From Mesostigma viride (taxonomy: Eukaryota; Streptophyta; Mesostigmatophyceae; Mesostigmatales; Mesostigmataceae): DNA of 64,000 nt. Of the stretch, positions 2,179 through 56,800 are shown piece by piece (positions within the stretch are counted from its first letter, which is position 1; each line of letters begins with the position of its first letter). A program made the position numbers and the translations under genes. Below the pieces are notes generated by a model. The model saw only the letters and a program-made list of their open reading frames with translations, ran no database searches and was not told where the DNA came from. The stretch covers positions 844,143 to 908,142 of the forward strand of contig RPFO01000103.1 in NCBI GenBank assembly GCA_009746045.1, read 5' to 3'.

Positions 2179-5100
2179 TCAGCATAGGTACGACCCGAGG
2201 GCCAACCACAGGCCGAACTGGGTGTACAGACCGCACGCGTCCCGCTCCAAGTGGGGCAGCTCGGATTCGGGTGTATCCAGAAACTGCTTGCCCAGCCGCC
2301 AGAGCCGCGGGCCGGTTGCGAGCGGCAGCAGCACCCACATGGTGGACACGTGGTTCCACGTGAGGTGCAGCAGGGAGGCCACGGCGCCCACAAGTAGCGC
2401 GCACAGCCAGACCTGGGCGGGGATGGGTTGCATATGTGGTTGGGGTTGGAGGTTGGCATTGGGTTTGGGGTTGGGGGTTGGGATTGGGGGTGGCGTTGGG
2501 GTTGGGAGCAGGCAGAAGGTGACAGCAACAGGCGTTCAACGGAAGTGAGGACGGCAGGCAAAACCGCCGCGCGACAAAGGGAAAAAGTCCATGATGAAGG
2601 AGAGATACAACCGATGGAAAAAATACCAATGAGCACAACCACAACGGTGCAGGATATGCCAGTAAGACAATGAGCACTACGACTGGGCACATACCCGGCT
2701 GTTCCAGGGGTGCAAGCGCGAGATATCCTATTACATGTGTCTGAGTCAACCCTATCCATTTAGTACAACAGTAGTATGTTAATGCTGTACCGTGCCACCC
2801 ACCCGACTATTCCCACACGTTACAAGCCTTCCCCTACCTTACCCTCTTCCACCCGATATCGATGAGACAACCGGCGCAGGCCAGAAATAGGGAGAACAAG
2901 AACAAGCGATATGCTGGTTGAAAATGACAAAATTAATACAGCATCAACAACAAGGAGGATGTGTTGTAAGCTGTCACCTACATGCCCGGCTAGTTACCGT
3001 ACCGTAGGGCATTCCTCATACCCTTATTATCCTATACCGCCCTGTCGCCCGTCACGCTTAAGATCCTATAATCCCACTACACCAAACTGACTTGTCTACC
3101 ACGTCCCGTACCCGGCTGTTCCATCATGGGTGCACCCGCGCGCTACGCTACTACACACGCATAAGTCCACCCATACTGAATCTATCTACAACATACTCTA
3201 TCTACGTGCTGAATCTATCTACTACATACTAAATCTATCTACATACTCTATCTACATACTGAATCTATGTACTACATACTAAATCTATCTACATACTCTA
3301 TCTACATGCTGAATCTATCTACTACATACTCTATCTACACACTACTACTAAATCTATCTACATGTTTACATAGTGCTACCCCACGACACCTACCCGGCTG
3401 TTCCAGGGGTGCACCCGGGAAGCCACCGTCGCATGCCCATTCCGCTGGTCATCCGCCAGGTGGCACGCATTGCCGGCGTGTTTGGCCGCGACGGCGAGCA
3501 GGCCGAGGGGCAGGCCCAGCAGCAGCAGGCTGTGCCAGTAGACGGCGGCCGACTGTGGGTATCATAGATAGGATGTGCAAAGTGAGCAGGATGTGGGCAT
3601 AGTAAATAGGGTGTGCATAGTGAATAGGGTATGGGCATAGTGAGTAGGGTGTGGGCATAGTAAATAGGGTACGTGTGCATAGTGATTAGGGTGTGGGCAT
3701 AGTGAGTAGGGTGTGGGCATAGTAAATAGGGTGTGCATAGTGAATAGGGTGTGGGCATAGTGAGTAGGGCGTGGGCATAGTGAATAGGGTGGATAGAGCA
3801 GACTGTGCCAGTAGGCGGCCAACGACTATGGAAACGGGCAGGGCAGGATTGACGATACACTCGGGCCTTGTGAGGTGAGCATGGTGGGTGGTGTGGCCAT
3901 GGTGTGGCTTGGGCATGGATCGTAGGGTGGGCACTGTCAGTGGGGCGGGCAGAGTGGATTGGGTGGGCAAAGTCGATCGGTTAAGTATCCCAGCCCCCAG
4001 GTAGGGGTGGGTGTAGTGGATAGTTTGCGCCTATTGACTCGGAGCGATTCTAGCGACCGTCCCAAAGTGGCGATGAGTGGTGGCCCGTTCATCCATGACG
4101 ACATGGCAAGGGTGCATCCGTGAGTTACACGCACGCCACCCCTGTGCACTACAGATAAGAATTCACTTCCCCCCGATTGATAGCCATGACTGGCAAGGGT
4201 GAATCCGTGCGTAGTTCACATACAACCCCTGCGCACTATAAGCACACACTCCCCAACTTGCCAGCGTTGACCGAGGAAAGGTGCGACATTCCCGTAGATT
4301 AGCGCGAGAACATGAGCGTACTCACCGCCACTACCATACCTGCATGTAGTCAAAGAGCAGAAACTGTTCACGAGAGACAACTGGAGTGCAGCTGCTCGTG
4401 GTAGCTAAGCCCCCCCCCCCCCCCCGCCCCCCCCCCCCCCCCGCCCCCCGCATCCATCCCCCCCGCCCCCCCTCCCCCCTGCCCCCCGCCCCCCCGCCCC
4501 CCCGCCCCCCCGCCCCCCCCCCCCCCCCTTGCCCACACAATTATACCACGCCCGACGAAAGACAACACGGTCGTACCTGCGCGTAATAGATGAGCGCCAC
4601 GGGCAGAACTCCGCAGTCCATCACGCGCGCACACTCCCACAGGAGCACCGGCAGCAGGCCACCTGGCAGCCGCAGGGGCACCCACGAGTTTGCGGCCAGG
4701 AAGAGGGTCGAGAGCACGCACAGCATGGCCGTCTGTGTGTGTGTGTGTGTGTGTGGAAGCGATAGGTGGACAGAAAAGATTCATATAGATGGTAAAGACA
4801 TAGAGGGGGTGGCAGCAGCACAGGGATGAGCACGCAATGCATGGCAGTTTGGAGGCAGAGACTGCGACGGGGATGTGGCACGCGGACGAAAGTAATGAGA
4901 ACCAAACGGTGGGGGTGTCAGACAATAGTAATCACGGGTGGGAGCATGATCACATGCGTGGGCAAGGACGAGGACGGAGACGGGGCCGTGGCATGTGGGC
5001 AAGGACGGAGACAGAGACGGGGATGTGCCACGTGAATCATGACCAGGACGCAGGACAACGGCCACTGGACCCTGATCCTTAGACCTTGATCCTTAGACCT

Positions 5101-8100
5101 TGATCCTTAGACCTTGATCCTTAGACCTTGATCCTTAGACCTTGATCCTTAGACCCTGATCCTTAGACCCTGATCCTTAGACCTTGATCCTTGTACCCTG
5201 ATCCTTAGACCTTGATCCTTGGACCTTGATCCTTAGACCTTGATCCTTAGACCTTGATCCTTAGACCTTGATCCTTAGACCTTGATCCTTAGACCTTGAT
5301 CCTTAGACCCTGATCCTTAGACCTTGATCCTTGTACCCTGATCCTTAGACCTTGATCCTTAGACCTTGATCCTTAGACCTTGATCCTTAGACCTTGATCC
5401 TTGTACCCTGATCCTTAGACCTTGATCCTTAGACCTTGATCCTTAGACCTTGATCCTTAGACCTTGATCCTTAGACCCTGATCCTTAGACCTTGATCCTT
5501 GTACCCTGATCCTTAGACCTTGATCCTTAGACCTTGATCCTTAGACCTTGATCCTTAGACCTTGATCCTTAGACCTTGATCCTTAGACCTTGATCCTTAG
5601 ACCTTGATCCTTGTACCCTGATCCTTAGACCTTGATCCTTAGACCTTGATCCTTAGACCTTGATCCTTAGACCTTGATCCTTAGACCTTGATCCTTGTAC
5701 CCTGATCCTTAGACCTTGATCCTTAGACCCTGATCCTTAGACCTTGATCCTTGTACCTTGATCCTTAGACCTTGATCCTTAGACCTTGATCCGTAGACCT
5801 TGATCCTTGTACCCTGATCCTTAGACCTTGATCCTTAGACCTTGATCCTTAGACCCTGATCCTTAGACCCTGATCCTTGACCAAGGAGACAAGACACAGG
5901 GATGTGCTGTCAAAGGTGTGCTAAATTATTTCTTTTCGGTCATCATTTCTTTTCGGTCATGCCAAACTAGAAGGGATCAGGACCCATGTCTGGTTTTCAT
6001 TGGTCACATGAACAACGATGCCCGTGGCCATGACTGGCAGCACCCAACGGAAACCGCCATACCCTCGATGATGCCCACGATGAGCAGCATAGGTGTTTTG
6101 CACCCCGTGCCGACCACTTGCAAAAAGTAATAATAGCGAGAGTAATGATGCTAATAATAACAACGATAAAAATAGCATCAGAAGAAATTAAGAAGATAAA
6201 ATAATGATTTGAAAAATATTAAAAGGCTTAAGGGCCGAGCGTACCTTCTTCCCCGTCACCAGCAGCACCAGCACCGTCGCGGAGAAGTACAGCAGCACGC
6301 CAGTCGCTCCCATGAGAGGGAACCATGTACCGCTGCCAGCCGCCCCGCTTCCACTGCCCCCCTTGGCCCCCCCAATGCCACCACTGTTCCCATACCAGGA
6401 GCCGTACGGGGTCCGGTCCTCGCCCTGGGAGGACCCAGGCCCCTGCAGGGGGGAGGCGGCCTTGTGGGGGACCTTCCACGAACGGCTCGCGGCCTGGTCG
6501 GCGGGGCTCTCGGACACACGTGGGGAGGGGGAGGGGGGTTGGGCGGCGGGCTTTCGGGACAGGAGCGTCCATCGGTCCTCTCCGATCAGCAGCAACGATA
6601 TCTGCACCGCCAGGGACGTAGGGGCAGTGAAGGCAGCGGGGCTGATAGAGCAGGTTAACGGGCAGTGTAGGCAGGGGGGCTTATAGAGCCGGTTAAAGGG
6701 AACCAGCAATAACAGCAACAGCTCCGCGGTCTTCCACGGCAAGCAGCGACAGTATCGGAATACTATTACAGTGAATAATTGGGATATAAGAAAACGGTTT
6801 ATTACAGTGAATAATTGGGATATAAGAAAACGGTTGATTACAGTGAATCATTGGGATATAAGAAAACGGTTGATTACAGTGAATCATTGGGATATAAGAA
6901 AGCGGTTGATTACAGTGAATAATTGGGATATGAGAAAACGGTTGATTACAGTGAATAATTGGGATAGAAGAAAACGGTTGATTACAGTGAATAATTGGGA
7001 TATAAGAAAACGGTTAATTACAGTGAATAATTGGGATATAAGAAAACGGTTGATTACAGTGAATAATTGGGATATAAGAAAACGGTTGATTACAGTGAAT
7101 AATTGGGATATAAGAAAACGGTTGATTACAGTGAATAATTGGGATATAAGAAAACGGTTGATTACAGTGAATAATTGGGATATAAGAAAACGGTCGGCAA
7201 GGGTCAGGAAACGACAGGCAAGGGGCGTTGTAGACAGGGAGGGATGACACAACAGTAGTTTAGATTTAAGGCATCGGTCGGTAGTCTTCCTCGATCAACA
7301 GCGATGACATCTGAAATTAGGGGAAATAGGGGCAGGGTTGAGTTGAGTTGAGTTGAGTCCCGCGCCGGTGGTTCGACAGGGCTATTAATAGGGGGAGGGT
7401 AGGCAAGGAGATATGGCAAAAGCAGCAGCAAGGGTCTTAATTGGGTGGTCTTCCGAAATGAATAGAGATGTAAGGGAACCAGGGGCATTACAGGCCGCGC
7501 AACAAGGGGAAGTGCCGGCAGGACCGTGTAATTCATGCAGGTTTGCGTGTGCGTGTGTGTGCGTGTGTGTGTCTTCTGGGGGGGAAAGGGCTAAAACGAT
7601 GGGAGACCAAACCACAAAACTCCTCCCAAGCGACTACAGAATGTGCTCCGCAAGACAACGATACCACTTGCTCCACAAATTGCCTTTTGTGCACATCAAA
7701 ATGGCCAACAAGTGCAAAGGCATGGTCAAGCTTCCTACCTTCCCACTTCCATCATCATCGTCACCACCGCCACTAACGATAAGACAAACAAGAAAAACAC
7801 TAGATGCTTGCACACCAGGAAAAACAGGTGGGCCAGGACACAAAGTGAGGCCCCGGGCACGACACCAACGAATCTGGACCCTCCTCCACCGCCACCAAAA
7901 AGTAAAGAAACAATTATGATGATGATTAAAGAAACAATCATGATAATAACAATAATATAAAATAACCACCTGAGTGCACAGTAGGAAGCAGACGATGGCC
8001 AGGAACCGCAGCGGCGCAATCTCGACGTCCCTGGCTGCCAGCGCGAGTCCCAGGAGAGAAGGGACCAGCACCGACGTGAGCGGCTCCAGCCCCCGCTGTG

Positions 8101-8984
8101 ACGGGTGCGGAGGAGGACGAGGAGGGTGAGGCGGTTGGCCCTCGCCTTGCTGCTGCTGGCTGTCACTCCCACCACTCGCCCCGCCACTGCCGAGGCTCCT
8201 GGCGGCAGCCGCCTGCCAAGCGGGCCCCTTGGCAGCTCCCGATCCTGCTCTCGCTCCTACTTGTCCTCCGGGCATGGCGTCGAGGTCTCCTGCACGCTGG
8301 CGGCTCTCAAAGGCTGAGTAGCCCCCGTAGGCAGGGGACGAGGAGGGGGGAGTATACTTGATGCCGCTCTGCGAGGGGTTGACCCCAGGGGGTGCTCCCT
8401 CACGCGGGGGCCACCGGCGGCGCCTCCCCGCCCAAAAACTCCATGACGATGATGACAACGGAGAAGAATCCTGCCTGTCATCTAGGCTGTCATAGCTGTT
8501 GTTGTTGCTACTACTGCTGGAACTGGCAGCGGACGCCGTGGCACGCGCTGGGCCCACCCCCGCCTTCCTGCCCAGTAAAATCACCCTAGTGCCAGTTAAA
8601 CCTGCCTTACGGCCCAGTACAATTGCCCGACTGCCCAGTAATCTTGCCCGACTGCCTGGACAAAGCGCCCGACTGCCCGGTAGGCAGCTGCCGGGCCTGG
8701 CCACGTGGCTGCATCGCCCCAAGCCAGCTGGTGGTGACAGTTTATGGGCGTTTCCACTCCAGGACTGCCCGCCCTTGCGCAGCGGTTGGCAACTTTTTCT
8801 GCCCACAGCGGGGAGCTCCAAGTCCAAATCTGTCCCACTGCTCTGCAATGCGGGGGCTCTGAGGGGACGTGAGCTGGTGCCCCAAATAGACTGCATCGAG
8901 CTGCCGCTGGTTCTGGCGGACGTCACGCGGTCACTGTAGCAGCATGGGTCACTGTGATCGTGGCTCCTGGGCTGACGTGGAGAC
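2179..8984 (-). CDS. Multi-pass membrane protein of unknown family (5' end not found)
   Basis: Five minus-strand exons, all joining in phase 0: 8984-7970 (which itself begins mid-codon), 6601-6245, 4732-4577, 3552-3394 and 2412-2179 (stop). Each junction has an AG acceptor and GT donor. About 639 residues are visible. The first exon codes a Ser/Pro/Arg-rich low-complexity region and then hydrophobic segments (VLVPSLLGLALAA, FLAIVCFLLCTQISLLLIG across the junction). Exon two adds GVLLYFSATVLVLLVTG. Later exons add about four more, including LLLLGLPLGLLAVAA and VWLCALLVGAVASLLHLTW. About seven membrane spans are expected. I do not recognise the family. The start codon should lie upstream between 9 and 11 kb; the gene diverges from the katanin gene. 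Introns hold minisatellites and copies of exon edges (2,690; 3,106; 3,803; 7,268). Confidence 0.6.
3170..3365. repeat. AATCTATCTAC minisatellite
   Basis: Irregular tandem repeats of AATCTATCTAC(T)ACATACT in the last intron of the membrane-protein gene. Confidence 0.85.
3592..3795. repeat. GGTGTGGGCATAGTGAATA minisatellite
   Basis: About eleven copies of an 18-20 bp unit (variants GGTGTGCATAGTGAATA, GGGTACGTGTGCATAGTGA) in the intron between exons 4732-4577 and 3552-3394. The long minus-strand open frames here are repeat translations. Confidence 0.9.
4411..4528. repeat. C-rich homopolymeric tract
   Basis: Over 100 bp almost entirely of C with single G, T or A interruptions, close to the donor of exon 4732-4577. 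Run length is likely to be unreliable in assembly. Confidence 0.95.
5069..5880. repeat. 14-bp CCTTAGACCTTGAT minisatellite with a TTGTACCCTG variant
   Basis: About 58 near-perfect copies of a 14-bp unit fill roughly 810 bp of intron. Variant units containing CCTTGTACC recur at about 5,190; 5,330; 5,400; 5,500; 5,610; 5,695; 5,750 and 5,805, giving blocks of several units each. This is compatible with higher-order duplication. Confidence 0.95.
6767..7195. repeat. 36-bp minisatellite (ACAGTGAATAATTGGGATAT...)
   Basis: About twelve copies of a 36-bp unit containing ACAGTGAATAATTGGGATAT and AAGAAAACGGTTGATT. Because 36 is a multiple of three, all frames stay open as 12-residue repeats, which gives false genes on both strands. 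It lies in the intron upstream of exon 6601-6245. There are no spacers, so it is not a CRISPR array. Confidence 0.95.
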
Positions 8985-11201: not shown

Positions 11202-30640
<19,439 letters not shown>

Positions 30641-33814: not shown

Positions 33815-36800
33815 TCATCCTACGTGCTCTGCCTCCCCCTCCTCCCCCTCCCCCCCCTCCTCGCCCTCCCCCTCCTCCCCGTACTCCTCCTGCCCAGCCA
33901 CCGAGGCCACTGCGGCCCCATTCTGGCCCCCGGCACGCCCCCGGCCCCCCCCAGCCGCCAGCTTCTCCCTAACCGCCGCGCGGATCTCCCCCAACACCCC
34001 CTGGTTCTCGATCAGGTACGCCCGGGCCTTATCCTTGCCCTGTGCGATATTATTTCCCTGGTAGCTGTACCAGCTGCCCGATTTATCCATCACACCCTCG
34101 CGGACTGCTAAGTCTATCAGTTCGGACTCCTTGGAGATGCCGCGCCCGAACTCGATGTCAAACTCGACAGTGCGAAAGGGGGGGGACAGCTTGTTCTTGG
34201 CGACCTTGACGCGCACGGTGTGGCCGTACACCTGGAAAGAGGTGTGGACGGGTGTGGGTGTGGGTGTGGATGGGTGTGGAGAGGGGGGGGGACACAAGCG
34301 GGGTGAGGTGTTTGTATCAAAGGATTTGAAATGCATTTCTGAACAGTTCTACACGTATGGCAGAATAACCATCTACCATCTACTGGAAGCACGGGTAACC
34401 TTGACGTGAATGGTGTGGCCATGCACCTGGCAAAGAGGGACTTGTGGGTCAGGGAGTGGGGGTTTGGGACATTAGGGGGGGCTAGAGATGACATACCATA
34501 GTGGCTTAAAGCAATTTCGAAGAAGCAGTTTTCGAGCCAAATCTTGGCCACTATGGTACAGCAACTACAAACATGCAGTGGTACAGTGACGAGCAGACTG
34601 TATCACTGTTATGAACTTCCCCATGCGCAACTAGGTAAGGTTCCAGTGGGTCATCGTCGATGGGATGCGGGCATGAGGCATTCGCTGCCAAGCCTGCAAC
34701 CACGCCAACGCCTCGCGAGGCTGACGCTGATGATTTCGGTTCACTTTTCAAAGGAAAAATTGTTCATATAAACGTTGTTCATTTTGTCTTTTTAAAATTG
34801 TAAACCACGTGCATGTGTGCCTGTATCATGTGCGTTGCGTAATGCATACCTCCTTGGTGTAGTCGATCCTATTGTAGTGCTGCAGTAGTAGAATATGATC
34901 GACTGTTACTACAGTGACACTACTGTGGTATTACATGTAATCGAATGTCTCACATCATAGAGCAGCAAGCCTTTGCTGCCACGGGAAAAACAATGCTATA
35001 CAAGCAGCCATTGCAAGAGCAGCCCCGATCGACTAATAAATTTGTGGCCACTTTGCCGAAAAAAAAAATGCAGCGATGAGCGAGAGGTGACCCTGGGATT
35101 CGAGGCCCCCCTCGCGAAAAGAAAGCAGCAACAGGCGAGCGGCAGCTAAACAACCCCCCCCCCCCCAAAAAAAAAAAACCAACAACGATACAATAGCCGC
35201 CCACGTGGCATGCGATACAAGTCTTCACAAGAGAGCCCGGGGGGCTTCGGCAAACATGGTGTACATTCAGGGTGACATTGGTACGTATTATAGGAGAAGA
35301 AAGGAGTAATACGAAAAGGATAGGGCGATGAGCTCCCCTGCTGCCCCTGGAGTGAGGAGAGCTTGAGCTGTTGATAGGGGCATCAATAAACACGGATGTG
35401 GGAAGGAAAAGGGCGATCCGCTCCCCTCCCCCTGCGGTGAGGAGAGCTTGAGCTGTTGATAGGGGCATCAATGAACACGGATGTGGGAAGGAAAAGGGCG
35501 ATCCGCTCCCCTCCCCCTGCGGTAAGGAGAGCTTGAGCTGTTGATAGGGGCATCAATGAACACGGATGTGGGAAGGATAGGGCCATCCACTCACCTCCTC
35601 CCCCTGCGGGGTGGAGCGCTTCAGCTGGCTGATCTTGCGGATGTCCAGGCGCACGCTGGCGTAAAACTTGAGCGCGTTGCCGCCCGACGTCACCTCGGCG
35701 GGGCCAAAGCTGCCGAAGGACGCGATCTTCGAGCGCACCTGCCGTCACAAGTACGCAATGGTGGCCGTTGTTTGTTCCCATGTCTATTTGTTAGTGAGTC
35801 TGTTTGTCGTGAGCCGCCAAAGGACGCGATCTTGGATCGCACATGCTGTTCGAAGCACATAATGGGGCGGTTGTTCCCTATTCTATTTGTCAGTTAGTCC
35901 GTCAGAAGTTCATAAAGGGGCGGATGTTCGCGCTTCTATTTGTTAGGTAGCCGGTCAGAAGTTCATAAAGGGGCGGTTGTTTGGTCCCATTCCTAGAACC
36001 TATTGAGTCCGTATGTAGTACGAATTGGGGCAGGAGTTTCCATACCTTTGTGTCAGTAAGTCCATTTGTAGTGAGCTGCTGAAAGAGGCGCCCTGGGAGC
36101 GCATCTCCAGAGAGGGCAGTAGCTATAGAACACTAATATGACTTGGCTCTCATCGCAGACAACTGTGGTGACTACCCAGTTACAATGGTGGCTGCCCCAT
36201 GGTGCCGTACTGCACGATGACCTTATCAGTTACCGGTTGTCAGGTTGCGCTCCGAAGGCATGTCCTTCGGCAGCCCATTTTGGGGCTCGTGGACAGATGT
36301 ATAGCTGGATTCCACTGCCCCATTTTCCCGGTGCACTTGAAGGCCGCCTTATTGGACGTGGCTCCTGGGGCGTCGGGGTAGTATGAACCTATGCCCTATG
36401 ACGCATTCCTGAGCTGGGATGCTTCTACTTGTCCAGTGCAGTGGCTGGTTGATAAGCACATCCCCAGGGGTTGATTTAAGTACCTGTTGTCATCACTACA
36501 CCACCCCAACACACTTAGTGTAGAGGGGGGGGAACATATCCCCCTATATCATTAGCTGGGCGCGTGAGAAGCAAAAGAGCTAGGTTTCCCAACTTCCTGT
36601 CATTACCACACAACCCTACCTGCTTGACGGACCCCTTTCTTGAACCTCAACAGGGGGATGTACCTGCTTGACAGACACCAGCGTCGTCAGTGTCCTGGAC
36701 AGCGCGCGTGACCTCTTGCCGCAACTCATGCACCACGTATAGATTCACAGCTGTCAGTGCAGTGCCTACGTTACACTTCACAACCCACCAGATGGATGAA

Positions 36801-39800
36801 CACCAGCATCATCGCCGCCTTGGCGAGCGGCCGAGCGTGCGCACCCCCTTGCCGCAACCCGTGCGCCATTAACCGTCACAGATATCAGTACAGCATGTAC
36901 ACGCTATATAAACCAGCATAGTGCTCACTAATAGTAGTATCAGTACAGTATGTACACGCTATATAAACCAGCATAGTGCTCACTAATAGTAGTATCAGTA
37001 CAGTATGTACATGCTATATAAACCAGCATAGTGCTCACTAAAAGTAGTATCAGTACAGTATGTACACGCTACATAAACCAGCATAGTACTCACTAATAGT
37101 AGTATCAGTACAGCGAGCACACTGTTACCACAGAGCGACTACGTCACGGTTCATGGCCCACCTGGTTGATGAACACGAGCGTCGTCTGCGTCTTGGCCAG
37201 CGCGTGCGTCAGCTTGCGAAGGGCCTGGCTCATCAGCCGTGCCTGCACTGCCATGTGGGCATCCCCCATCTCGCCCTCCAGCTCTGCTTTAGGGACTAAT
37301 GCCGCCACCTGTCACAACCGGGAGTCCGGGACACAGCAGACACGCCGCGATGGACGCAGCGTGCATGCAAGCAAGTCATATGTTAAGTCACATTAAGTAT
37401 GTTATGTCAAGGAAGGGAGCAGCTGCCTGTTTAAAGTAGGGCGCTGGTGCCGCCATCTCTTCGCCACGACCCATTTGAGTCAGCACCCCCTGTCCCAGCG
37501 GACCAACCAACACCCTGTCCTAGTATGCAGAACATCCACTTCATTAGGGATGCATGCACAGCCCATCTGGCCTTGGCCGCAGCACCAGCCCACGTGTGCC
37601 GAAAATTCCCACAAGCAACAACGGGAATTACCATTTAATGCGACAAAGACACGCGTGTGCACCACCCTCCCATCCACAGGGTCATCTCCACCTGTGTTGC
37701 ATCCACCCTCGCGCCCACGTGCTCCTGACCTCCCCATGCGTGTGTGCTGCACCCTCCCATGCACAGCGTACGTTGAGAATTTGTGTGTGTGTGTGTTGCG
37801 TCCACCCTCACATCCACACGTTGCACCTCTCTTTTTTGAGGGGGGTATTTATCAACTTGTTCCCTTTATGCACTAACTTCCTGAAATGCAAACTTGTTCT
37901 ACTACTATTAGTGGTATATATACTGGAGCTATGAGCTAGCTACATCACACGAGCCCACTCACGCTGTCTACCACGATGACCGACACGGCGCCGCTCTTGA
38001 CCAGCGTGTCGACCAGCTCGAGAGCCTGCTCCCCGCTGTCCGGCTGCGCCACATACAGGTCGCGCGTGGCCACGCCCAGCGCCTGCGCGTACGAGTAGTC
38101 CAGCGCGTGCTCCGCGTCGATGAACACGCAGTGGCCTGGGAGGCGGGGAACGGGAAGGGGCAGTGTGTATAGGGAGATTGAAGAAAAGTTAGGCTATGAA
38201 TGGCAGCGGTTGATGCTCCGCGTTGATGAAGACATAGTGGCCTGGGGGGACAAGCAGAGCAGAGGAGTGACAGGGGGGGAGGGGGGGGGGGCAAAGACAC
38301 GATGTAAGCAACAAGCACGCGCGCGTATGTCGTCCAGCGCGTGCTGCGCGTCGATGAACGCGCAGTGGCCTGTGCCGGGTCGTGGGTATTATATCGTGTC
38401 GTACAGTAGTATAGTAGCATAATAGTATACATACAACAGGTTACAGGTGGTGTATATGTAGTGCCAATCTCACCTCCGTAATTCATAATTATCCATGAAT
38501 ATGTATAGTGTTTATACTACTATCATGTTCTTATTTAGTGGCATGTACAGCAGAGGTTTTGCAGGAGTTGGTATCACAATATGGAGTCTTTTATTATAGT
38601 GGTGTTTATAGTGAGTACTTGAATGCAGGAGTTCGTATCACAATATGGAGTCTTTTATAGTGGTGTTTACAGTGAGTACTTGAATGCAGGAGTTCGTATC
38701 ACAATATGGAGTTTCTTATAGTGGCATTTATAGTGAGTACTTGTATGCAGCAGCTCGTATCATAATATGGAGTTTTTTATAGTGGCATTTATAGTGAGTA
38801 CTTGTATGCAAGAGTTCGTATCATAATATGGAGTTTTTTATAGTGGTATGTGAGTACTTGTATGGGGGTGCTAGGCAAGCCAAGGCAGCGGGGGGGAACA
38901 CAAAAAGATGGATGAGCGAGCACGATTGCAGTCATCAAGCGTGTGCTCATAGCGATGAACCCAGCAGTGGCCTGGGAGGGGGGAAAAGGGAAGGGGCAGT
39001 ATCTGTTTAGTGGTAGGGAAAATTGCGCTCTAATTCTGGCGCCTGTCTCATTCCCGTCATTCATCATTTTCTATGAATATATATATATATAAGGTGATAG
39101 AAGACGTGTCCGGGCACGCATAGCAGCAATACTTTGCGTTGATGAAGACGCAGTGGCCTAGGGGAAGATGCAGGGCAAAGGCTTGACAGGGACAAGCAGA
39201 GCGAAGGCGTGACAGGGGCAAGCAAAGCATAGGCGGGGAAGAAGCAGGGCAAGAGATTGGCAAGGGGGAGAGACCGCGCCAGCAATTATGGCACGGGGGA
39301 TGAAATGAAGGAAGCGAAAGGGGGAGGGTTGGGTCAGCACCAGCTGTCACCGTGGCCTATCGCGTGCTCTGCATCCAGTATCAGGCAGCCAGCACCTTAC
39401 CCCCGTCTGCTGGGATTTGGCGATACCACGCTGTAGCCCGTCACTTTCTCGGATCGAGCTCGATCAACGAACAGAAGGGGAGAAAAGAACAAGGGGCAGA
39501 GCACGTACCCCCCATCTGCTGCGCTTCTGCGATCACGTGAAGCGCCAGCGTGGTCTTGCCGGACGCTTCGGGGCCGTAGATCTCGATCACACGACCCTGG
39601 CACGCGACAGACCAGGGACCAGGGACCAGCACTAATTAATTGATGTGATGTGTGTGGACCACGGACGACCTCTTGAGCCTTGTTGATCGCACGCGACGTA
39701 CGGCGTCACGCAATGGATGGGTGGAATTGGAAGGGAGCGCCTTCCCTAACCTCGATCAAGGAGTTCAGTAGGAGCGTGTCAAGGAATGCAGGTACCAGTG

Positions 39801-41823
39801 GGACCGGGCATGGCATCCGTGGGTTGGGCGCATCCACTGTCACGGCCACGGTGTGGGGCCAGGATGGCATCCATGGGTTGGGCGCATCCACTGTCACGGC
39901 CACGGCATGTGTGGAAAGAAAAGGGAAGCAGCAACATTGACTCGACTCCATGCCTGTGGATGACAACAAGGTGCCCCGCAGGGGACGTTGCGGCGACAGC
40001 ATACCCTTGATAGCTTGCCAAACTAGTGAGTAGAATACTTCAAACACTAAAACTAAAAAATAAAATAAAATAATAAATAAATAAAAATACTAACAACACC
40101 AGTACCTACAAAACTAGTCAGTACTTTGCCACACAAAGAGATGAATTCATCATTTCCTTACCTGCGGAACCTTCCCCCATTCCAGGCGTAAACAACCCTC
40201 ACCAAAAACGCAGTAGCGTGCAGAGACGCACATAGAGGCAGCTGGTACAATCAGATAGGAGATGAGAGATAGGAGATAGGAGGTAGGAGGTAGGAGGTAG
40301 GAGGTAGGAGGTAGGAGGTAGGAGATAGGAGATGGGAGATGGGAGATGGGAGATGGGAGATAGGAGATGGGAGATGGGAGATGGGAGATGGGAGATGGGA
40401 GATGGGAGATGGGAGATGGGAGATGGGAGATGGGAGATGGGAGATGGGAGATGGGAGATGGGAGATGGGAGATGGGAGATGGGGCATGGGGGATGGGAGA
40501 TGGGAGATGGGAGATGGGAGATGGGAGATGGGAGATGGGAGATGGGAGATGGGAGATGGGAGATGGGAGATGGGAGATGGGAGATGGGAGAGAGCGGAGA
40601 TAGGAGAGAGAGCGGAGAGTGGAGAGCAAAGAGCGGAAAGCGAATAGCAAATGGCGAATAGCGGATTGCGATTAATACAAGCAGCACCCCTCCGAAACCC
40701 AACACAGCATCCTAACAAATAACACGGTAGCATGATCAAAAGAAGATACACTACGGTACAATAGAAAGCAAAACTACAAGTAGAAAGCAACACTACAGAT
40801 AGAAAGCAACACTACAGTACAATAGAAAGCAAAACTTACCTTTGGCACCCCTAAAATGCCCAGCGTGCGATTCCTAACAAAAACATGAGACCGTGACTCA
40901 ACCAAACTCATGACTAAACCTAAAACATGACCAGACCAAAACCATGACCAGACCAAAACCATGTCGAGACCAAAATCATGACGAGACCAAAACCATGGCG
41001 AGGCCAAAACCATGACGATACCAAAACCACTACTATAGCGAGACCAAAACCATGACTAGGCCAAAACCATGACGATACCAAAACCACTACTATAGCTGCC
41101 ATCACAAATGACGAAACTCACCAGGGGCATATCCCCAGCGTGCATACTCTAACAGGCAACACGGCATTGCTACAGTATCATGATGTGAAAACGGCACACA
41201 GCGATGTTAAAAAGGAAAGCATGAATGTATCACCTGCGGCACCCCCCCGATGCCCAGCGCGACATCCAACGCGAGAGACCCCGTGGGAATCGCCGGCACG
41301 GCCGCATGCCCCGTCCCCCCCTCCTCCCCCAGCCGCATGATCGTCCCCGCGCCATAGATAGAGTCGATCTGGTCCAGCGTGGCCTTGAGGGTGGCAGCTC
41401 GCTGCTGGCGCTCGCGTTCCCTTGCTTGCTCGGGGGTCGGTGTCCCGCTGCTGCCGCCGCCACCGGCACCTTTGGTCTTGGAGGCTCGGCTCTTGACTTG
41501 GGGTGGGGGAGAAGGGAGGGGTTAAAGGAAGACAAAGAAGGTGATTAAATAAAAACAAAAGAAGAAGAAAAAAGTAGGTGGTCAGGGACGGGGGAGATAT
41601 TGGGGGCATGGGGTGGGAAATTGGGATGGGGGAGGGGGTGGAAGGTATTTGGGTGGGCAGGGAATGGGGGGAGGAGGCGGAATACGAGGGATGGGGCATC
41701 CAGGGAAAGGAAGCGAAGATTTATCAAATCGCGGTTCTGGAAAAGAGGTGGGTGGGCGGAAGGCAGGTTTATGAGAGCGGAAGGCAGGAGTTCAAGGTAT
41801 AGCAGACATAAGTCTTGGGGGCA

Positions 41824-41862
<39 letters not shown>

Positions 41863-46817: not shown

Positions 46818-48046
46818 AGGCTTGCGGTACCTCGTAACCAACTCCAAGTTTTTGACAGCGGAGAATGGTCATCAGAGGAGGACGATCTACGAAGTGCCTT
46901 GGGCTGTTTGTATCAAGTGAAACAACAGCCTTTCGTGTGTGTATATTGGCCAGCACATCCTGTATGATTGAACCATAGTCTGTTCCAATGTGCATCAGGT
47001 GGGACCTCGGCCGAAGAATGTGGTTCAGGTCAGGCCGCCCCTGTTCACTCGCAGTCTTCGCTGTCATGGCTGATGTTTCATAGTGGCGATTAATCATGGC
47101 ACACAGGGAGAGGTTGCAGCCATGCCCGCAGCGGCCTCTTTTTTTATGATTATTGATATGATATAATGGACTTCTACGGCTATGCTCGACCTCGAAAGGT
47201 TCCGGGCAGAGTGGCCCCCTTGCCCCTATACATGAATGAACTGCGACTTGTCCTTGGATTTTATTAAGTGAGACAACAATGCCTGGACGCGTGGCGATCC
47301 AACGTCGTGGAAAGACTAGGGTAGTTGTCTGAGAGGAAAGACGCGAAGACCGCGGTGGCTATCTGTAGGAAGACCTGCAAGGAGGGAGACAGATGGTAAC
47401 AAACAAAAAAGTTTATAGAAAAACCAAAACTAGAGAGGAAAAAGAGCACACACACACAAAGGGATGTTTGCATGTGGTCACAACTCAGACCACATTATAT
47501 CATAAAAGTAAATTAAGTAATATGTGAAAATTCTGTGAGGTACACATCACTATGTGACATTGGCCATTTGTGTGCCCGAAATACACGCGATGTGGTTGCA
47601 AATGGTTATAATGGACCGAGCTTTGCTCTTTGAATGAATGCATGGTATTTGCATGAAGTTGGCTGGTATCCACCACGTACGATGACCAGTTCGGACTTCG
47701 CTCGCAAGCTAGAGTTCGAGCAAGTATATGGGTAACACTGTTTGGCCGGCCGGATGGATCGATCGCTTGGCCATGTTACCAACATTGACATTACCACGTA
47801 CATATCGATCGAGACGTCGTACCAGCGCAGGCTGGCCGGTCTGCAATCGGCATGCTCATCCAGCTAGCTAGGGAAATATTGGAAGGAGAAAATTGACACA
47901 CTCAGGGAATCGGCCCATTCCCGCTGGGGGCAGCCGGACCGTGCTGGTAGCACGTCGAACGGCACCGGCCTTGCCTGCATGCGAGGTGCCACATATACAG
48001 CGAGCTTGCCGAGATTCTGGCGGGTGTGGCTGCATGTCTTGCCGGG
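46818..48046. other. Intergenic, no gene seen
   Basis: No supported coding region. About 47,265-47,318 resembles 490-537, so it carries a dispersed repeat. Confidence 0.5.
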
Positions 48047-49873
48047 ATTAATTAATTAATTAATTAGACTCGTGCTCCCGTTGGGTCCGACTCACGGAGC
48101 ATTAACCCCGATGGATGGATGGGTGGGTGCAAACAGTCCTACCGGTCTATGCTATCTACATCAGCTACCTACGACATCTATCTAACAGCATTACTAACAA
48201 CAACATCTATCTCCACATCACTGCGCAAATTCTGCAATGCCATGTGCACGGACCTACAGCTTGCTCCCCTTGCCATGGAACCGTGGTTTCGCGCCGTCAT
48301 TCACGAATGCAATGCACGTCTCACCAGGCTTGATTACCGTCTCCAGCAGGTCCACCGCACCACCTGGCTCAACACCACAGATAAAGCACTTCTTGACCAA
48401 GTGCTTCAAGCAGGACTTTATCATCACGTGTGTTGACAAGAGTGCCAACAACTTTGCTTTTATATGCAAGAAGCACTACCTTGCTACTTTGCAACACGAG
48501 TTGGCGTCCAGCCCTACCTATGTTCAGCGTGCACAGTCCACCGCCAGTATCACTGCTGCTCATCGGGCTTTTCTGCACAGCCAAAACATTTTTGCTCGGG
48601 CATTCCTTAAGCGGCAGCGACGCGCCACCACCACTACGTTCCCATATCTGTATCTCACTCTTAAGCTGCACAAAACTCCTGTTGCTTTGCGCACCATTGC
48701 TGCGTCGCATTCAGCCCCACTGATGCCTCTCTCGAAACTCATCTGCCATGCTTTGAATGCTCTTCTCCCCGAAGCCAATGCATTATGGGTGGAGGTGCTT
48801 TCGAATGCCGGGTATCAGAATGCGCTGGTAGTTGGATCGTCATAGACTCAGCCCAAGTACGCCTACGCCTTGCCGCCCTTAGCCGTTCTAAGACAGCAGC
48901 AGAGAAACGTATACCTATGCCCATAGCCACCTATGATTTCACCACTCTATATACCACACTAGATTTGCACGATTTGAAAGCTCGTTTAGATAGCCTCCTT
49001 ACTCGTCTGTATGCACGTAGGCCTCACGGGCGCAACCACCTGCACGTGCGTGTTTCTCAGACCAAGCCCACGGCAACGTGGCTCTCAGGGATCGCGGCAG
49101 GTGCTATCGTGCGGGATGGTTATAATTATATTATCACGAAGGCTGACCTTGTTCATTGGATCTCTTATCTTGTTGATAACACCTTCATCTGTTTTGCGGG
49201 CAATGTATACCAACAAGCTATCGGCATCCCTATGGGCACTAACTGTGCCGGGCTCCTTGCAAACCTCTATCTATACACTTATGAGCTTGCATTCATGGAG
49301 AATCTCATTGCCTCAAACGATGATGTTCTCATCAGGCGTTTTATCCATACATGTCGATACATTGATGATGTCATCGCTTTCGACAACCCTGATTTCGCAA
49401 CCCATTTGTATATCACCGCTGGTCTGCCTGGCATCTACCCGCAAGCGTCCCTCACATTAAAGCTCACGTCGGAGGATACTCATTGCAATTACCTCGATCT
49501 TAACATTACCCATAACAAGAAGGGCTGGCGTACGGCTGTCTATGATAAGCGCAAGGATCCTAAATACCAGCAAATTCCTTTTATTCGTTACCCCGATATT
49601 CACAGTCTCCTTTCCCACACAGCAAAATATGGTGTTGTTCTTTCTCAGTTACATCGTTTTTCCCGTCTTTGTTCTTATCGTGTTGATTTCATCACGACTC
49701 TTGTTGAACTCTTGCAGCGTTTATTGGTCAAAGACTATGACCGAGCCATTATGCTCCGTCAAGTCCGATGTTTTTTGCAACGTCACCCACATCTGTTCGG
49801 TGCTGCCCCTTGGCACAAGCTCTACAAACAGGTCGTGGACCGGCTGGATCGCATAGTATCTCCGCACATCTGA
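48047..49873 (+). mobile_element. Penelope-like retroelement (5' region plus reverse transcriptase)
   Basis: The left part (48,047-48,225) matches the split relic at 31,651-32,085, which marks it as repeated DNA. Coding follows in two overlapping frames at 48,237-48,845 and 48,785-49,873. No GIY-YIG endonuclease motif (GIY...YIG) is seen after the reverse transcriptase, so this is either an endonuclease-lacking lineage or a truncated copy. The 3' end is not defined. Confidence 0.85.
48237..49873 (+). pseudogene. Penelope-like reverse transcriptase, one frameshift
   Basis: Copies element RNA into DNA. The first frame (48,237-48,845) carries the N-terminal part, with CVDKSANNFAFICKKHYL and the fingers region YLYLTLKLHKTPVALR. 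The second (48,785-49,873) carries motif A (YDFTTLYTTL), motif B (AIGIPMGTNCAGLLANLYLY), the catalytic RYIDDV (motif C) and the thumb. GIPMGTNCA with YIDDV is characteristic of Penelope-like enzymes. The frames overlap by about 60 bp, and a single indel near 48,820-48,845 would join them in SWIVIDSAQV. The element was therefore recently intact. It ends SPHI-stop, about 360 codons after the second start, without an endonuclease domain. Confidence 0.85.
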
Positions 49874-50884
49874 ACCCTGTGATGCCAGATCTCCTTTGCG
49901 GCCGTTCCGAGCTTGGCAGTGGATTCGTTGTCCACATCGTCGCGTCGCTGCCGCAACACGATGTTTTCTGGCATCCGCGGGCTTTTGGTTCCCGCCGCAC
50001 ATTTGAAAGTGCTGTCCTCCGGCTTTTTGCCTTTGCACCGTGTGCAGTTCTTGGACGTTTGGAATCATGGCATGGCTAACGTGATGACTGACTAGCTAGA
50101 CCTTTTCAGTGGTTTTCCATTTGCGGGTATTTCCTCGTAAATGGTGGGAGAGCGATCGCAGCAATGGTGCTCACCACTAGACACTCCCGGCCAGTTAGGC
50201 TCGAAACACATGCCCTGATCAAGCATGCTGTTTCCGGCCCCACCGTCTAGGTCATCTAGTCGCTCCACACGTAAGCCAGCCATAATTTCAATGCACAAGG
50301 ATACACATTTCCATCACCATTCGGGCGTCCCCAACATCTACTGCTCCAACCTAGGGCCATTGCTGGTACTTTTGACGTCATGAAAGCAGCGTTTTGGACT
50401 AGTGGAATATGATTTTACAGCATAAAAAGTCCATTTTATCATGAATGAACATGGCCAACAACCCCAAGTGCCCCTAAATTTCTCAATATTTGTAGATAAA
50501 TGCTACTTCTCATAAGCTAAACCTGCACAAATGCACAATTTGGGGCATGCATGTGAAAGTTTGAAGTACAAATTCGCAATAAGGTTTTACATTTTTCAAT
50601 TAATAATGGTATCTCATTCTTCAATCAATCAATTTGCAATCGTCCAAACAATTTATTCATTTCATACATGTCCGAATATGTTTAAAGAACACATGCAAGT
50701 GCTCAATCAGCGTGGATCCCCTTCGACGCGCCGCACCATATATACATTCGACACGTCAACCCTTCTACTAAACTGCCACTTCCAGAAGTCGCGGTCACTG
50801 ATCGAACTACTATGTACATCTGCATTTCTGAATGTTGCGGTGGGCAAACGTGCAAAACGCGACTTCGTGCAAAGTCCTTGCCCA
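49874..50884. other. Intergenic, no gene seen
   Basis: Possible 3' tail of the retroelement, then AT-rich sequence. Open frames on either strand are antisense shadows or lack protein-like composition. Confidence 0.45.
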
Positions 50885-53800
50885 TCATCGCTTGCCAGGT
50901 CGATGTGAAGGAATGTTGTCCCAGCTGGCGCCTTCCTTCAGGAGAGTAACATGTTCGCTGGCGAACTTCAGGGGGAAACGAAACCTTCTCTCGCTCTCAT
51001 CACTCCGACCGAGTTCGTACCCTTCATCAAACCATCTGATCACCACCTTCTCCTTCTCGCGGCCCAGGAGGGTGCCAAAGAGCAGAAAATCTTCCTTTTT
51101 GGGGTACTTGTGCTGCCAGTTTAGCCACATGTCCTCTACCCATTTCGAAGTCCAACCTCCGCGACCCAGTTTCGCGCCATCCATAAAGCGCATCCGGACG
51201 TCTGGCTCAACGTCCCTGATTGGGTCGACCGCTGTGCAAACCGCCCCCTTTTCCGCAACTGGCAGCCCCCCACCATCTCTGCCCTGACCACCACCCTTCT
51301 GCGGCTGTGAAGGTTCGTCGGCACCCTCCGTCTCCTGCCCCGCCCCTCGCCTGCCCCCTCCCCGACGTTTTGCCTTCTGCCCCTGCGCAGCCGCCGCCTC
51401 TGCCATCAACTCTTCGTACGTTTTTTCTGGCTGACCGCACGGTAAGGGTGGTGCGTGGGGTGCGTTGGGTGGGAGGGAGGCCCCTCCCGCCCCCGGTTGT
51501 GCAACTGGTGCGCCGACCGCGGCCTGGCCAACAACACGGCCGGCCTCTCCGGACACAGTCCCAAACGCGGATCCACGGGGAAACCGAACTGGAGTTTCTT
51601 CTTCGCCTTTCCCTGCACGTAAGCACATGCCAATTAACATGAATACGGAAGGGTCGTGTGAGAAATCAATGAAGCCATGGACTGATGCAAAAAAACTTAT
51701 GTAGAAATATATTAAGGTACTTATTAAACTCGTTTATTGAAAATGAAATTTACCGGCCGAATGTACCGTTGGAGCGTGGAAGGGCATCCTTGTTCGATCG
51801 AAGATATCCGTCAATGCGGTCAACGGTGCGTTCGATGTCCCTGGCGGCGCCTCAACATCGACCACCTCAGTCGGGCGCATCAATCCGGCAAACGCCGGCC
51901 CTCCACCTGAGACTGTCGGCGGACCCTCCACGTTACGAGCCTCCAATACCCTCTTCTGCAGTGGGGTGCTCGCAACAAAATCCGTGTCAGCCGACGGGAC
52001 CGGATCGTCATCCTCATTCAGCAGTATCGTGTCCGGGCATTGCTCCATCCCCGTCGGGCGGGGGGGCAAAGTCATCACAACCGTCCTTCCTGACGACGGT
52101 ACGGGATCGTCATCCATACCCAAAGAAACCGAGGCGAGGGCGGGGGTCCCCTCAACCGGGGGTCCCCATGAATCCTGACGAGGCCTCATTCCCATCTGTC
52201 GGACACGACCGCCTCCCGTAAATCGGGAACGCCCGCCGGCGCTACCAGTAACAGGCCGCGAGCCTGCTTCCTGCTGGCGATCCCCATCCTCATCACAGAT
52301 ACGCCCGCCGGCGTTACCAGTAACAGGCTGCGAGCCTCCTTCCTGCTGGCGATCCCCCTCCTCATCACAGATACGCCCGCCGGCGTTTCCAGTAACAGGC
52401 CGCGAGCCTCCTTCCTGCTGGCGATCCCCCTCCTCATCACAGATACGCCCGCCGGCGTTTCCAGTAACAGGCCGCGAGCCTCCCTCCCGCTGGCGATCCC
52501 CCTCCTCATCACAGATACGCCCGCCGGCGTTTCCAACGACAGGCCTCGAGTCTCCTTCACCAGCACGCTGGCGCTTACCTCCCCCCCTGTTGTCTTCATC
52601 CCCCCCCATTGTCTCATCACGCGAGCCTCCATCATCCCGACTGCGCTTTTTCCCTCCCCTTCCATCTCCTCCCCCGTCCCTCTCCCCCCTCCCCCTCCTC
52701 CTCCTCCCCATCCCCTTTCTCCCCCTCCGCCTGCCCCCACCCACCCGGGCGGGTGCCCCTCAGCAATATCCTCCTCCTCCTCCTCCTCTCCTCCTCCTCT
52801 CCTCCTCGTCCTCCTCGTCCTCCTCGTCCTCCTCATCCTCCTCCTCATCCTCATCCTCATCCACCTCCCCCACTTCCTCCTCCCCCTCTTCCCCCTTCTC
52901 CGAATCATCATCCTCATCAGACGAAGAATCGTCGTCGGCAAAGTAGGCGAGGTCTTCCCACCCATCTTCAACAAGCCAATATTTGATAAGGCGGACCAGG
53001 CGCTTCCACCGGCGGATATGGGCGGGCTCCCCGAACACCAGCAGAACTCTGCAGGGTCCCCTAAAAAGGGCGTTGGTCATCTTGTCAACCACATCCCACA
53101 CGACCGGGCTCAAATGCGAGGAGGGTTTGGGAATGTGGCGCTCCTCCGGAATGCAGTCTGGGTCCCACTTGCGCAGGTTCCTCCACTTCTCGTTGCTGTC
53201 AGCTGCCAGGTCCAGCACAGCAAACGCCTGGTCCTTCAGCGACCGAGGAATTTTGTCAGACCCCGTGCACAACTCGTCCACCACCTTCGTCACCACCAGA
53301 TCCTTTCTTTTTTCGTTTTCCTTCCATGTCATTGTCCTGTATGCGATCCAGTCGGATCCCATCCTCACCCCCTTCCAATCGCTGTAGGCTTCCAACCTGT
53401 CCCGCCACCCCTTCTTGGCCTTGGTAGTCCCCTCCTCCGCCGCCTCCTCGACCTCCTTCTCGACCTCCGCCGCCGCCTCCTTTGGCACACCCAGCAGATG
53501 TTTGGTCTTCACCCCCAAATCGTCATACAAATGACGGGGGTGGGAAGCGAGCAGCCCTCTCGGGAACTTCCAGTCCTTCTGGTCGACCACTTTCCTTTTA
53601 GCCGGCGGAAGGTCCCTCAGCGTGAGAATGATCGCCCTCGTGGCCGTGACGACCACCCGCCAAAAGTCTCTGGTCAGGCGGCAGTCGGCGATGAACTTGT
53701 CGAGGTCCGTGGCGAAGGTGCCCTTCAGCTTCACGCCAAACACGTGCTCCCTCACCAATACGGGGTTGAAGGTCCCGTCTAGTTGTTTGCAAGCGGCCAT

Positions 53801-56800
53801 CAGGGGGGGTTCTCCAGGAACTTGATGTGGGCGAATTGCACGGCCGCCTCTTTCAAATTCTTGGCGACTTCCATTATTTTTATCAGGTTGCTGGGAGGGG
53901 CCTCACAGGACATGATCGGCGCTTGGATCAGGCTGTCGAAGTACTGGAAACTCGCAAGTTCCCGATGCGCGGTGAAAATGGACAGTTCGTGCGCCTTGTC
54001 TTTAGGGCGCGCGTCAAGGAAGTCTTGCCGAGCCGCGATATCCTGTGCGATCGCCGGCTTGCCGTCGACAACGGGCTTCAAAGGGTCCTCACACCAGAAC
54101 AGCCAGCGCTGCATGAAGTTCTTCTGGTCCGGCCCCCACTTGTCGGTCTCTTCAGCCCCCCTGCCTTGTCGCCGGCGCCGTCCCCTTCGGCCTTGGCTTG
54201 CTCTCCTTTCTGCCAAAAGGGCTTCACAATCGCCCAGATCTTGCCGTACAGAGGAGTTGGGAGAGACACGCCCTTCCCTCTCTTGACGGGTCCATATGCC
54301 TGGTAGGCCCGGTGCACATCCCCCAGCGCTGAGCCCCACGTTGCCTTGGCTTGGGCTGTGTCCTCCGCGTTCATGGCGTTCCCGAGCTGCCTGACAATGC
54401 CGATCATCTCGCCGACTCGTTCGGAAACCTGCATCGCCGTATGGCAAAAACGCGCAGAGACACATCGACAGTCCTCCCAAATAAGCACAACTCAACTGAG
54501 AACAATAAAGCGACTCACAGAAACGCCGGCGGTCGCATCTTGACCAAAATATGGTGGAACATGAAAACCCCTTATAGAAACGCCGGCGGTCGCATCTTGA
54601 CCGAACTAATGGCATACTGAAATTAACACAAGAAAACCACTTATAGAAACGCCGGCGGTCGCAACCTGGCTTACCTTCTGTTCACGGATCTGCCACCAGG
54701 TCGGCAGGATGGTCTCACCCTTGAGCATCTGCACGTCCACCCCCCCGAAATTCGTCCAATCAGTTGCCCACTCCTCCAGCTTCGCCGCGGCCACGGTCTT
54801 CGTGACCTCCTGCTCCTTCCCTCCCCGCGCAACGACCCTGAGCTTTTCCGCCTTCATGAAACCATTCAGCATTGCCTTGTACCACACAGATCTTTGGTCC
54901 ACGGTCATATTTGGGGTGACCAGTTCGAATTTCACCGATTTGATGAGTGTGGTAAAGTGGTTCCCGTCCAGCACGAGAAAGCCGCAAATGGCTGGCGGCA
55001 ACGGTGGCTTTCTCTCGAGTGGAGCCATCTCCCAGGCGGACTTGCACAAACTGTCCAAAAGCGCGGCCTTTCTCACGTCCACGGGCTTAAGATCGTCCAG
55101 AATATCGGCCGGTCCTGTCAGAACCGCGGTGGAAGCAGCTTCGGCCATCTCCTTGGCCGAGCTCGTTCGCAGGTAGATATCAATCTCTTTGTCAGTCATT
55201 GCGCGAGCGTAGCCAGCCTTCATTGTCCGTGCCCCCCCCATCTCCCCGAAGAGTTGCGCGAGCTGACGCTGGGTACCTTCCTTTTTCGTCCATTCATGAA
55301 AACTGTTCGGGCACCGGTCAGCCAAAAACTGGAACGAGTACCGCCACACAGGAATCACCAGCTTGTCGTGGCCGTAGTCGGACTCCGAGTTTGCAAAAAT
55401 GGTGGCGTTCTGCTCGGCTCTAGACAGATGCAAGTCTCGTGCGAGGAGCTTCTGAGGCCCAACGAACAGGTTCCTTGTCCACACCCGATTTCGATGCACC
55501 AAGGCCTTGGACATGTCATCGAGGTCCCGAGGCTGAACGGCAAGCTGCTTCCGCAACCGTTTGCCCTTCGCGATCTCATCGTTCACATCCAGAATGTCAT
55601 CATCATCCTGCGACACCGGGGCCTTCTCCCATTTCTCAAGCAGAGACACGGGAGCATCCGCAACCTCCACCTCCTTTCCTTTCCCCTTTCCCTTCAGCGC
55701 CTTCCCCTTGTGGGTCGCAAGTGCTTCGGAGAGTCCCTTCTGGAATTCGTCGACGGCAGCAGTCCACGTACTCGCTACTTCCACATCCGAGCTGCGCGCG
55801 TGCTGGTCGAGGCTGATTGAGTACAGGATGGCCGCGTGGGTCGCCCTCTCGGCCTGCACGTACTGCAGTGATGCGAAACAATCAGGAAAGCATAACCAAA
55901 AGGAAAAAGTAAATGTCACACTTGAGAAACGCCGGCCGTCGCAACCTACATGAAACCTGAACCTCAACATCAAAGCCCCCCTCACAACAGAGGTACACTT
56001 GGCTCATTTCCCTCAACCGTGATGCGAAAAAATCAGGAAAACATAGTCAAAAGGAAGTGTCACACTTAAGAAACGCCGGCCGTCGCAACCTACATGAAAC
56101 CTGGATCTCAAGAAGCCCCCTCACAACAGAGGTACACTTACCTCATTCCCCTTAACAATGATAGGAAAAAATCAGGAAAGCATAACCAAAAGGAATAAAG
56201 TAAATGTCACACTTGAGAAACGCCGGCCGTCGCAACCTACATGAAACGTGGACCTCAAGAACAAAGACCCCCTCACAACAGAGGTAGACTTACCTCATTC
56301 CCCTCAACCGCTGCTGCTTCAGCCGCTTTCTTCGACCCCTTCGCGGTCTTCGGAGACTTGTCCCGGCGGGCATCGTGTTCCTTCAACATCTTGATCAGAG
56401 TCTTGGCGTCCGCCATCGTCACCGTCAACAGTTTACACTTCCTCTCCTTCGCTTTGCCCTCGAACAGGTTCTCCTGCATCCACTTTATCAAGGCCTTGGC
56501 GCTCGGGATCTCCTCAGGCTGTGTGGCGCCATCGGGCGCGCACGCATTCTTCACGATCAACTCAGCGACTTGATGGAGAGTCATCATCTGGTTCCGTACC
56601 TCAGGTGGGGCTGTTTCCGTTCTCACCTCGGCCACAACCCGCTTTGCCAACGTCCTCAGTTTATAAGCATCCGCTTGCTCCTTAAAGCGTGTCATTTTCG
56701 CAGTATCGCCGTCGCTTCCACCCACGCCCTCTGACACAGGCTCACCGACAGCGATAGCCCCCTCTCCCTGGAGATTTGCCCCACCCTGACGACCGGCTTC

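Follow-up and report, generated by a model that had tools for sequence, protein, structure and literature searches.

Decayed copies of exon edges, often with their splice signals, in neighbouring introns of the green alga Mesostigma viride

A 64-kb window (the whole stretch of DNA analysed; contig RPFO01000103.1, in a genome of 439.9 Mb) of the green alga Mesostigma viride contains a RECA gene, part of a KATNAL2-like gene, a membrane-protein gene and a multicopy element at 50.9-57 kb. The subject of this report is a set of short, mostly decayed copies of exon edges, here called echoes, which lie in the intron adjacent to the exon concerned and often include its GT donor or AG acceptor. Of the window loci, RECA and the KATNAL2-like gene are the two in which homology fixes the exon edges, with borders modelled as GT-AG, and in which the matches were compared with chance expectation. 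In RECA, GT-AG borders were found, and the Pfam families RecA and RecA_C match the five exons scanned, exon 2 lying outside the scan. In the KATNAL2-like gene, Pfam AAA matches at 27543-27701 and 28436-28537 (the latter just below the curated cut-off) and AAA_lid_3 at 29454-29675. The name KATNAL2 for this AAA ATPase is presumed, and the first and last exons of the gene were positioned by presumed homology plus GT-AG. Each exon edge was represented by a query of 45 exon and 15 intron bases, aligned to the adjacent intron, and a score of at least 31 was counted as a match. The genes and their echoes are as follows.

33818..41521, minus strand: RECA gene, six exons (41234-41521, 39509-39596, 37963-38135, 37162-37308, 35595-35738, 33818-34231)
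40681-40716 and 40838-40865, minus strand: weak copies of the RECA exon 1 donor edge (41233), scores 33 and 32
39384-39437, minus strand: copy of the RECA exon 2 donor edge (39508), 74% identity
38930-38985, 39136-39162 and, weak, 39352-39388, minus strand: decayed copies of the RECA exon 3 acceptor edge (38135)
38329-38372 (93% identity) and 38214-38249, minus strand: nearer copies of the same acceptor edge
36777-36829 and 36662-36706 (span 36662..36829), minus strand: two downstream copies of the RECA exon 4 donor edge (37161)
35812-35849 and 36074-36106, minus strand: copies of the RECA exon 5 acceptor edge (35738)
35322..35627, minus strand: 85-bp tandem array reported by Tandem Repeats Finder (TRF), its unit including the RECA exon 5 donor edge (35594)
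35496-35545, 35411-35460 and 35323-35375, minus strand: copies of that donor edge inside the 85-bp array
34398-34438, minus strand: copy of the RECA exon 6 acceptor edge (34231), 85% identity
26309..30640, plus strand: C-terminal part of the KATNAL2-like gene (exons 26309-26393, 27541-27701, 28436-28537, 29454-29676, the last from 30501)
26208-26237, 26098-26136, 25927-25947 and, weak, 25388-25412, plus strand: copies of the acceptor edge at 26309
26373-26579, plus strand: 59-bp array (TRF) with the donor edge at 26394, copies at 26433-26467, 26484-26528 and 26544-26586
26633-26649, plus strand: further copy of the donor edge at 26394
27372-27423 and 27271-27322, plus strand: two copies of the acceptor edge at 27541, identities 0.72 and 0.69
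28019-28050, plus strand: copy of the donor edge at 27702, 81% identity
28318-28357, plus strand: copy of the acceptor edge at 28436, score 31, at the threshold
28607-28622, plus strand: short copy of the donor edge at 28538, 16 identical bases, its score reached by one of 200 shuffles
29762-29814 and 29970-30025, plus strand: two copies of the donor edge at 29677

Upstream of RECA exon 3 a single acceptor edge thus recurs four times clearly and once weakly. At the exon 4 donor the agreement by eye extends over the exon half as well as the intron half, a 55-bp minisatellite lying in between. At a score of at least 28, one to five copies accompany each echoed edge in the two genes, as the original prediction had stated. 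The window as a whole is rich in mini- and microsatellites, TRF returning 101 rows per 64 kb, overlapping rows counted.

These matches exceed what is found in controls. Own-intron scores of at least 31 are reached by 14 of the 19 edges of RECA and the KATNAL2-like gene, and each of these scores is reached by at most one of the 200 dinucleotide shuffles made per edge; the five edges without a copy at this threshold in their own intron are A2, D3 and A4 of RECA and A4 and A5 of KATNAL2. The same edges match non-adjacent introns of their own gene in 1 of 68 comparisons and introns of the other gene in 1 of 85. Exon-internal 60-mers reach the threshold in 1 of 39 cases in these two genes and in none of 263 in chaperonin genes. 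Six gene sets together provide 86 edges (43 donors and 43 acceptors, with KATNAL2 edge A1, which belongs to an intron of undefined 5' end, left out), of which 30 match their own intron, versus 15 of 3612 mismatched edge-intron pairs. The edges at or above 31 number 7/40 in the chaperonin set, 1/10 in kinesin, 4/6 in the NFU1-like gene, 5/12 in the riboflavin-synthase-like gene, 7/10 in RECA and 6/8 in the KATNAL2-like gene. Such an alignment of introns to their flanking exons, with mismatched pairs for comparison, had been proposed together with the original prediction, for which a density at edges no higher than that of exon segments or unrelated exons would have been unfavourable; in the genes sampled, the density at edges proved higher than both.

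Among the 30 best echoes, 27 cross the border by 2 or more bases on the intron side and 29 include 12 or more bases of the exon side, with medians of 34 exon and 14.5 intron bases. The lag from edge to copy has a median of 132 bp and a range of 33-673 bp, 20 of the 30 lying within 40-250 bp, and in 11 of them the matched length is at least 0.6 of the lag, as expected of direct tandem copies. Furthermore, arrays of 59, 85 and ~150 bp (the last in the element discussed below) include the edge together with its donor. The earlier suggestion of tandem duplication across exon-intron borders, leaving copies on the intron side, is borne out by these arrays and by the 27 border-crossing echoes. Of the 26 echoes whose alignment covers the splice dinucleotide, 22 retain the GT or AG, in agreement with their description as decoy splice sites. 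Copy identities in the window are mostly 0.69-0.94, the 16-base copy being identical.

Outside the window, the sample consists of 68 edges (34 donors and 34 acceptors) from chaperonin, kinesin, NFU1-like and riboflavin-synthase-like genes; it is small and covers few contigs. The chaperonin sample comprises 20 introns from 8 of the 9 regions fetched, region L030 being without a usable intron, and the kinesin sample 5 of 6 junctions, one having been dropped for a poor model. The chaperonin exons (L023-L031) show a strong codon bias, with a GC content at third codon positions of 0.857, against a GC content of 51.5% for the window. The NFU1-like (3 introns) and riboflavin-synthase-like (6 introns) genes lie on the contig of the window and were selected by coding score from a 200-kb portion of that contig; echo-like peptides had been noticed in translations of their open reading frames (ORFs) before scoring, and every modelled junction (3 and 6) was kept. 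Their identity and exon order are presumed from resemblance to known proteins. Pfam matches (Nfu_N, NifU, Lum_binding) were obtained in 6 of the 7 exons scanned in this set, two of the three Lum_binding matches lying below the curated cut-off, and the remaining exon (L005:1673-1777) had no Pfam match. Of the regions on this contig (C1480), L002, L014 and L015 consist entirely of N, L013 mostly of N, and L016 contains 120 N bases.

In this sample, 17 of 68 edges are echoed, compared with 13 of the 18 edges of complete introns in the window genes (Fisher P 0.0005), which are an ascertained sample, reported because the pattern stood out there. Echoes are therefore not confined to the window, yet they are rarer elsewhere and the rate in the window is atypical; the proposal of a genome-wide mode holds insofar as echoes recur elsewhere, not as regards the frequency seen in the window. 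Genes on the contig of the window have 22 of 36 edges echoed versus 8 of 50 in the other genes, and this holds for introns of 600-1000 bp (7/12 versus 6/26) and for longer ones (15/22 versus 1/8). The richer echoes on this contig may reflect a regional or an expression-linked difference. Donors are echoed more often than acceptors over all sets (20/43 versus 10/43, Fisher P 0.04), with 12/34 versus 5/34 outside the window (P 0.09). The analysis confirms a real pattern, in which decayed copies of exon edges, often with their splice signals, sit in the neighbouring introns, and which is common in at least part of the Mesostigma viride genome.

The explanation that we favour, with a probability of roughly 80%, is that the echoes are ordinary local tandem duplications that happen to cross exon-intron borders, of the type known as mirages in amphioxus. 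Local, border-crossing copies restricted to the adjacent intron are observed in several genes, and introns also carry abundant local duplications away from borders: depending on the gene set, 16-57% of the 60-mers taken from introns recur elsewhere within that intron. According to this explanation, intron DNA would be duplicated in tandem frequently in this genome, by slippage, unequal exchange or end joining. When the duplicated segment straddles a border, a second exon end with its splice site would fall on the intron side. The proximal copy would stay in use, so that the spliced product and the protein remain unchanged, and the duplication could persist and decay, while later duplications, minisatellites and deletions would push the copies apart. 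Duplications internal to exons would presumably be purged and splicing would ignore the copies; such purging would make the pattern appear centred on borders and would agree with the lack of copies of exon interiors (none of 263). Old border duplications would also be recognisable for longer than those lying in the intron only, because their exon copy is held by selection.

The strongest competitor, which we consider unlikely, is a process directed at borders, such as transcription- or splicing-coupled breakage, R-loops or splice-site-templated repair, that would preferentially duplicate exon edges and donors above all. Its test is a comparison with pseudo-edges, matched points within the same introns, with the expectation balanced by intron. 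When all intron points outside the window are counted, border-spanning matches occur at 21-22% of pseudo-edges, the corresponding counts at true edges being 11 of 34 for donors and 4 of 34 for acceptors. With the balanced expectation, 15 of the 68 edges have spanning echoes where 10.6 are expected (P 0.07), a ratio of 1.4; acceptors show no excess (5.4 expected), and the chaperonin and kinesin edges alone give 8/50 against 5.2 (P 0.12). A simple, unfitted simulation of boundary-blind tandem duplication, with exons held by selection, yields edge to pseudo-edge ratios of ~0.8-1.9 across all settings run, a range that includes the observed 1.4, and in most settings constrained exons by themselves raise the detectability of edges. 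The boundary-centred regularity that had been claimed is thus not borne out overall, and most of the pattern requires no border-directed mechanism.

Several observations weigh against ordinary duplication as the whole explanation, and the first three speak for a border-directed process. Outside the window, old copies (identity below 0.9) are found at 12 of 68 edges against 5.1 expected (P 0.004, ratio ~2.4), a rate of 0.18 that becomes 0.26 (22/86, ratio 3.2) when all sets are pooled, whereas the simulated edge rate for old copies is 0.07-0.14, with ratios of 0.8-1.9. Donors outside the window exceed their expectation of 5.1 (P 0.003), in line with the donor bias over all sets. The window genes have 11 of 18 edges with spanning echoes against 3.0 expected, although they are ascertained. 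In 19 of the 30 best echoes the matched length is below 0.6 of the lag, a shortfall that calls for decay, insertions or a copying step that is not tandem. Finally, the RECA copy at 38329-38372 matches the exon side at 93% identity and extends only ~3 bases into the intron; its origin by plain tandem duplication requires a breakpoint at the AG. Strict boundary-centredness as a special mechanism is nonetheless rejected on the small overall excess outside the window, judged by pseudo-edges and simulation, while the larger excess of old copies and donors is left as an unexplained remainder. The weaker signal of acceptors could be due to selection, since an upstream acceptor copy would meet the splicing machinery first. 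It is doubtful that intron growth in this lineage is driven by border-linked, donor-biased duplication that continually furnishes a large fraction of all exon edges with intact decoy splice sites; if this were true, the dated border duplications within one genome would number many thousands.

Other origins are considerably less probable. It could be imagined that selection keeps the echoes as decoy or regulatory splice sites, as the intact dinucleotides (22/26, against 64-72% expected from column identity) would suggest; however, the choice of alignment favours intact anchors and identity ranges widely, from 0.69 to 1.0, which makes this reading very unlikely. Slightly less credible still is an origin as remnants of whole-exon duplications, be they mutually exclusive exons or pseudo-exons. 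With short exons, decayed partial and whole copies are hard to distinguish, but the best matches start from one edge, with the median exon part already given, and exon interiors gave no match among the 263 tried. An artefact of assembly is improbable in the extreme, as the copies in the window are mostly imperfect, at the identities given above, and echoes occur on several contigs.

The two remaining loci of the window in which echoes had been noted are of a different standing.

2677..3831, minus strand: repeats of the membrane-protein gene (edge-like 3376-3420, copies 3099-3138 and 2677-2721; edge-like 3524-3558, copy 3797-3831)
54490..56310, minus strand: mobile-element copy, with a ~150-bp array at 55868-56310 that includes what looks like an exon end (56294) and a GT donor, and a 69-bp intronic array at 54490-54668

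In the membrane-protein gene, the repeats are 80% identical over 45, 82.5% over 40 and 82.9% over 35 bases, the edges being putative. An intron motif of the 50.9-57 kb locus (minus strand) has 2214 occurrences in the genome with one mismatch allowed, against 6 for a backwards control, and at most of the 100 places listed it shows one layout, with units ~150 bp apart, ~1.28 kb, and then units ~69 bp apart. The supposed gene is one copy of a repeat family of several hundred copies (an estimate based on ~6 matches per copy), in which the two intron arrays and the intervening exon retain their spacing. Its arrays have been inherited with the element, and the locus is therefore not independent evidence. 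At the 150-bp site, 18 element copies among the 100 places listed have 3 units in 13 cases, 2 in 3 and 4 in 2. These numbers are consistent with gain and loss of units, the variation being seen between mobile-element copies only and in a single haplotype. Copies are accordingly present at all four loci originally named, while homology-anchored edges are restricted to RECA and the KATNAL2-like gene, and the description of four unrelated genes does not stand.

Around this element, the ORFs scanned within 50.9-60.2 kb matched no Pfam family. A MYND zinc-finger protein is encoded at 62273-63055 on the minus strand (Pfam E 2.5e-7), its neighbouring ORFs being without Pfam families. At 48198-49873 on the plus strand there are reverse-transcriptase-like ORFs, the scanned part of which (48665-49873) is without a Pfam match; by eye, we presume a resemblance to Penelope- or DIRS-like elements. 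Regions L012, L016 and L017 contain clusters of long, GC-biased ORFs, one of them helicase-like by eye, and possibly represent a large integrated element; L012 and L017 have a common ORF on opposite strands.

For Mesostigma viride, PMC6947507 gives a genome of 441.85 Mb, a mean intron length of 1142 bp and repeats in 30.1% of intron space. A telomere motif had 5 overlapping matches, clustered on a single contig, and was uninformative as to the placement of the host. Introners (PMC9860276) share with the echoes a copy-based origin of intron sequence but are dispersed between genes, whereas the echoes are confined to the adjacent intron. An origin from introners or another dispersed element is rejected by the rarity of matches to other introns (the 15 of 3612 above), a comparison of edge queries rather than of whole introns. 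Tandem genomic duplication across AGGT as a route to new introns (Rogers, cited by PMC3087553; potato RdRp, PMC4974935) has in common with the present case that the duplicated segment carries splice signals; it differs in that no new intron is seen here. Birth of these introns in this way is likewise rejected, since the donor window and the acceptor window of an intron matched each other at a score of at least 28 in 0 of 43 introns, against 5 of 1806 unrelated pairs.

The closest parallel is formed by the amphioxus mirages, which run counter to the earlier statement that no described system was known to show this regularity. In PMC3087553 and PMC3902484, they are reported from Adh3 (for which PMC3087553 cites earlier work), the globins BflGb6 and BflGb9, TnC (mentioned in PMC3902484) and PGBD5, where the mirages are imperfect (PMC3902484). 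As described there, they are minisatellite-like tandem duplications of an exon end with its splice site, at 5' and 3' borders, with units of ~10-160 bp, and many but not all copies have AG or GT. The features found here correspond: border-spanning units of 59, 85 and ~150 bp, echoes of donor as well as acceptor borders, and retention of AG or GT in most copies. In amphioxus, mirages are further characterised by normal splicing that is left undisturbed and by lengths that are unstable between haplotypes. Here the host is a green alga, and most copies are old and imperfect, a state reported for PGBD5 (PMC3902484). No mirages outside amphioxus were found in the literature searched, a limited search that is not proof of their absence. 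If about one quarter of edges carry border duplications, as in the sample outside the window, the genome would hold a rich natural record of intron lengthening and of the tolerance of near-identical decoys. Whereas the amphioxus mirages are described gene by gene in PMC3087553 and PMC3902484, a genome in which such duplications can be counted would make their age, donor-acceptor asymmetry and dependence on expression testable. The echoes probably represent a known kind of event, and what is new is the host lineage and a first estimate of its rate over sampled genes, 17 of 68 edges outside the window.

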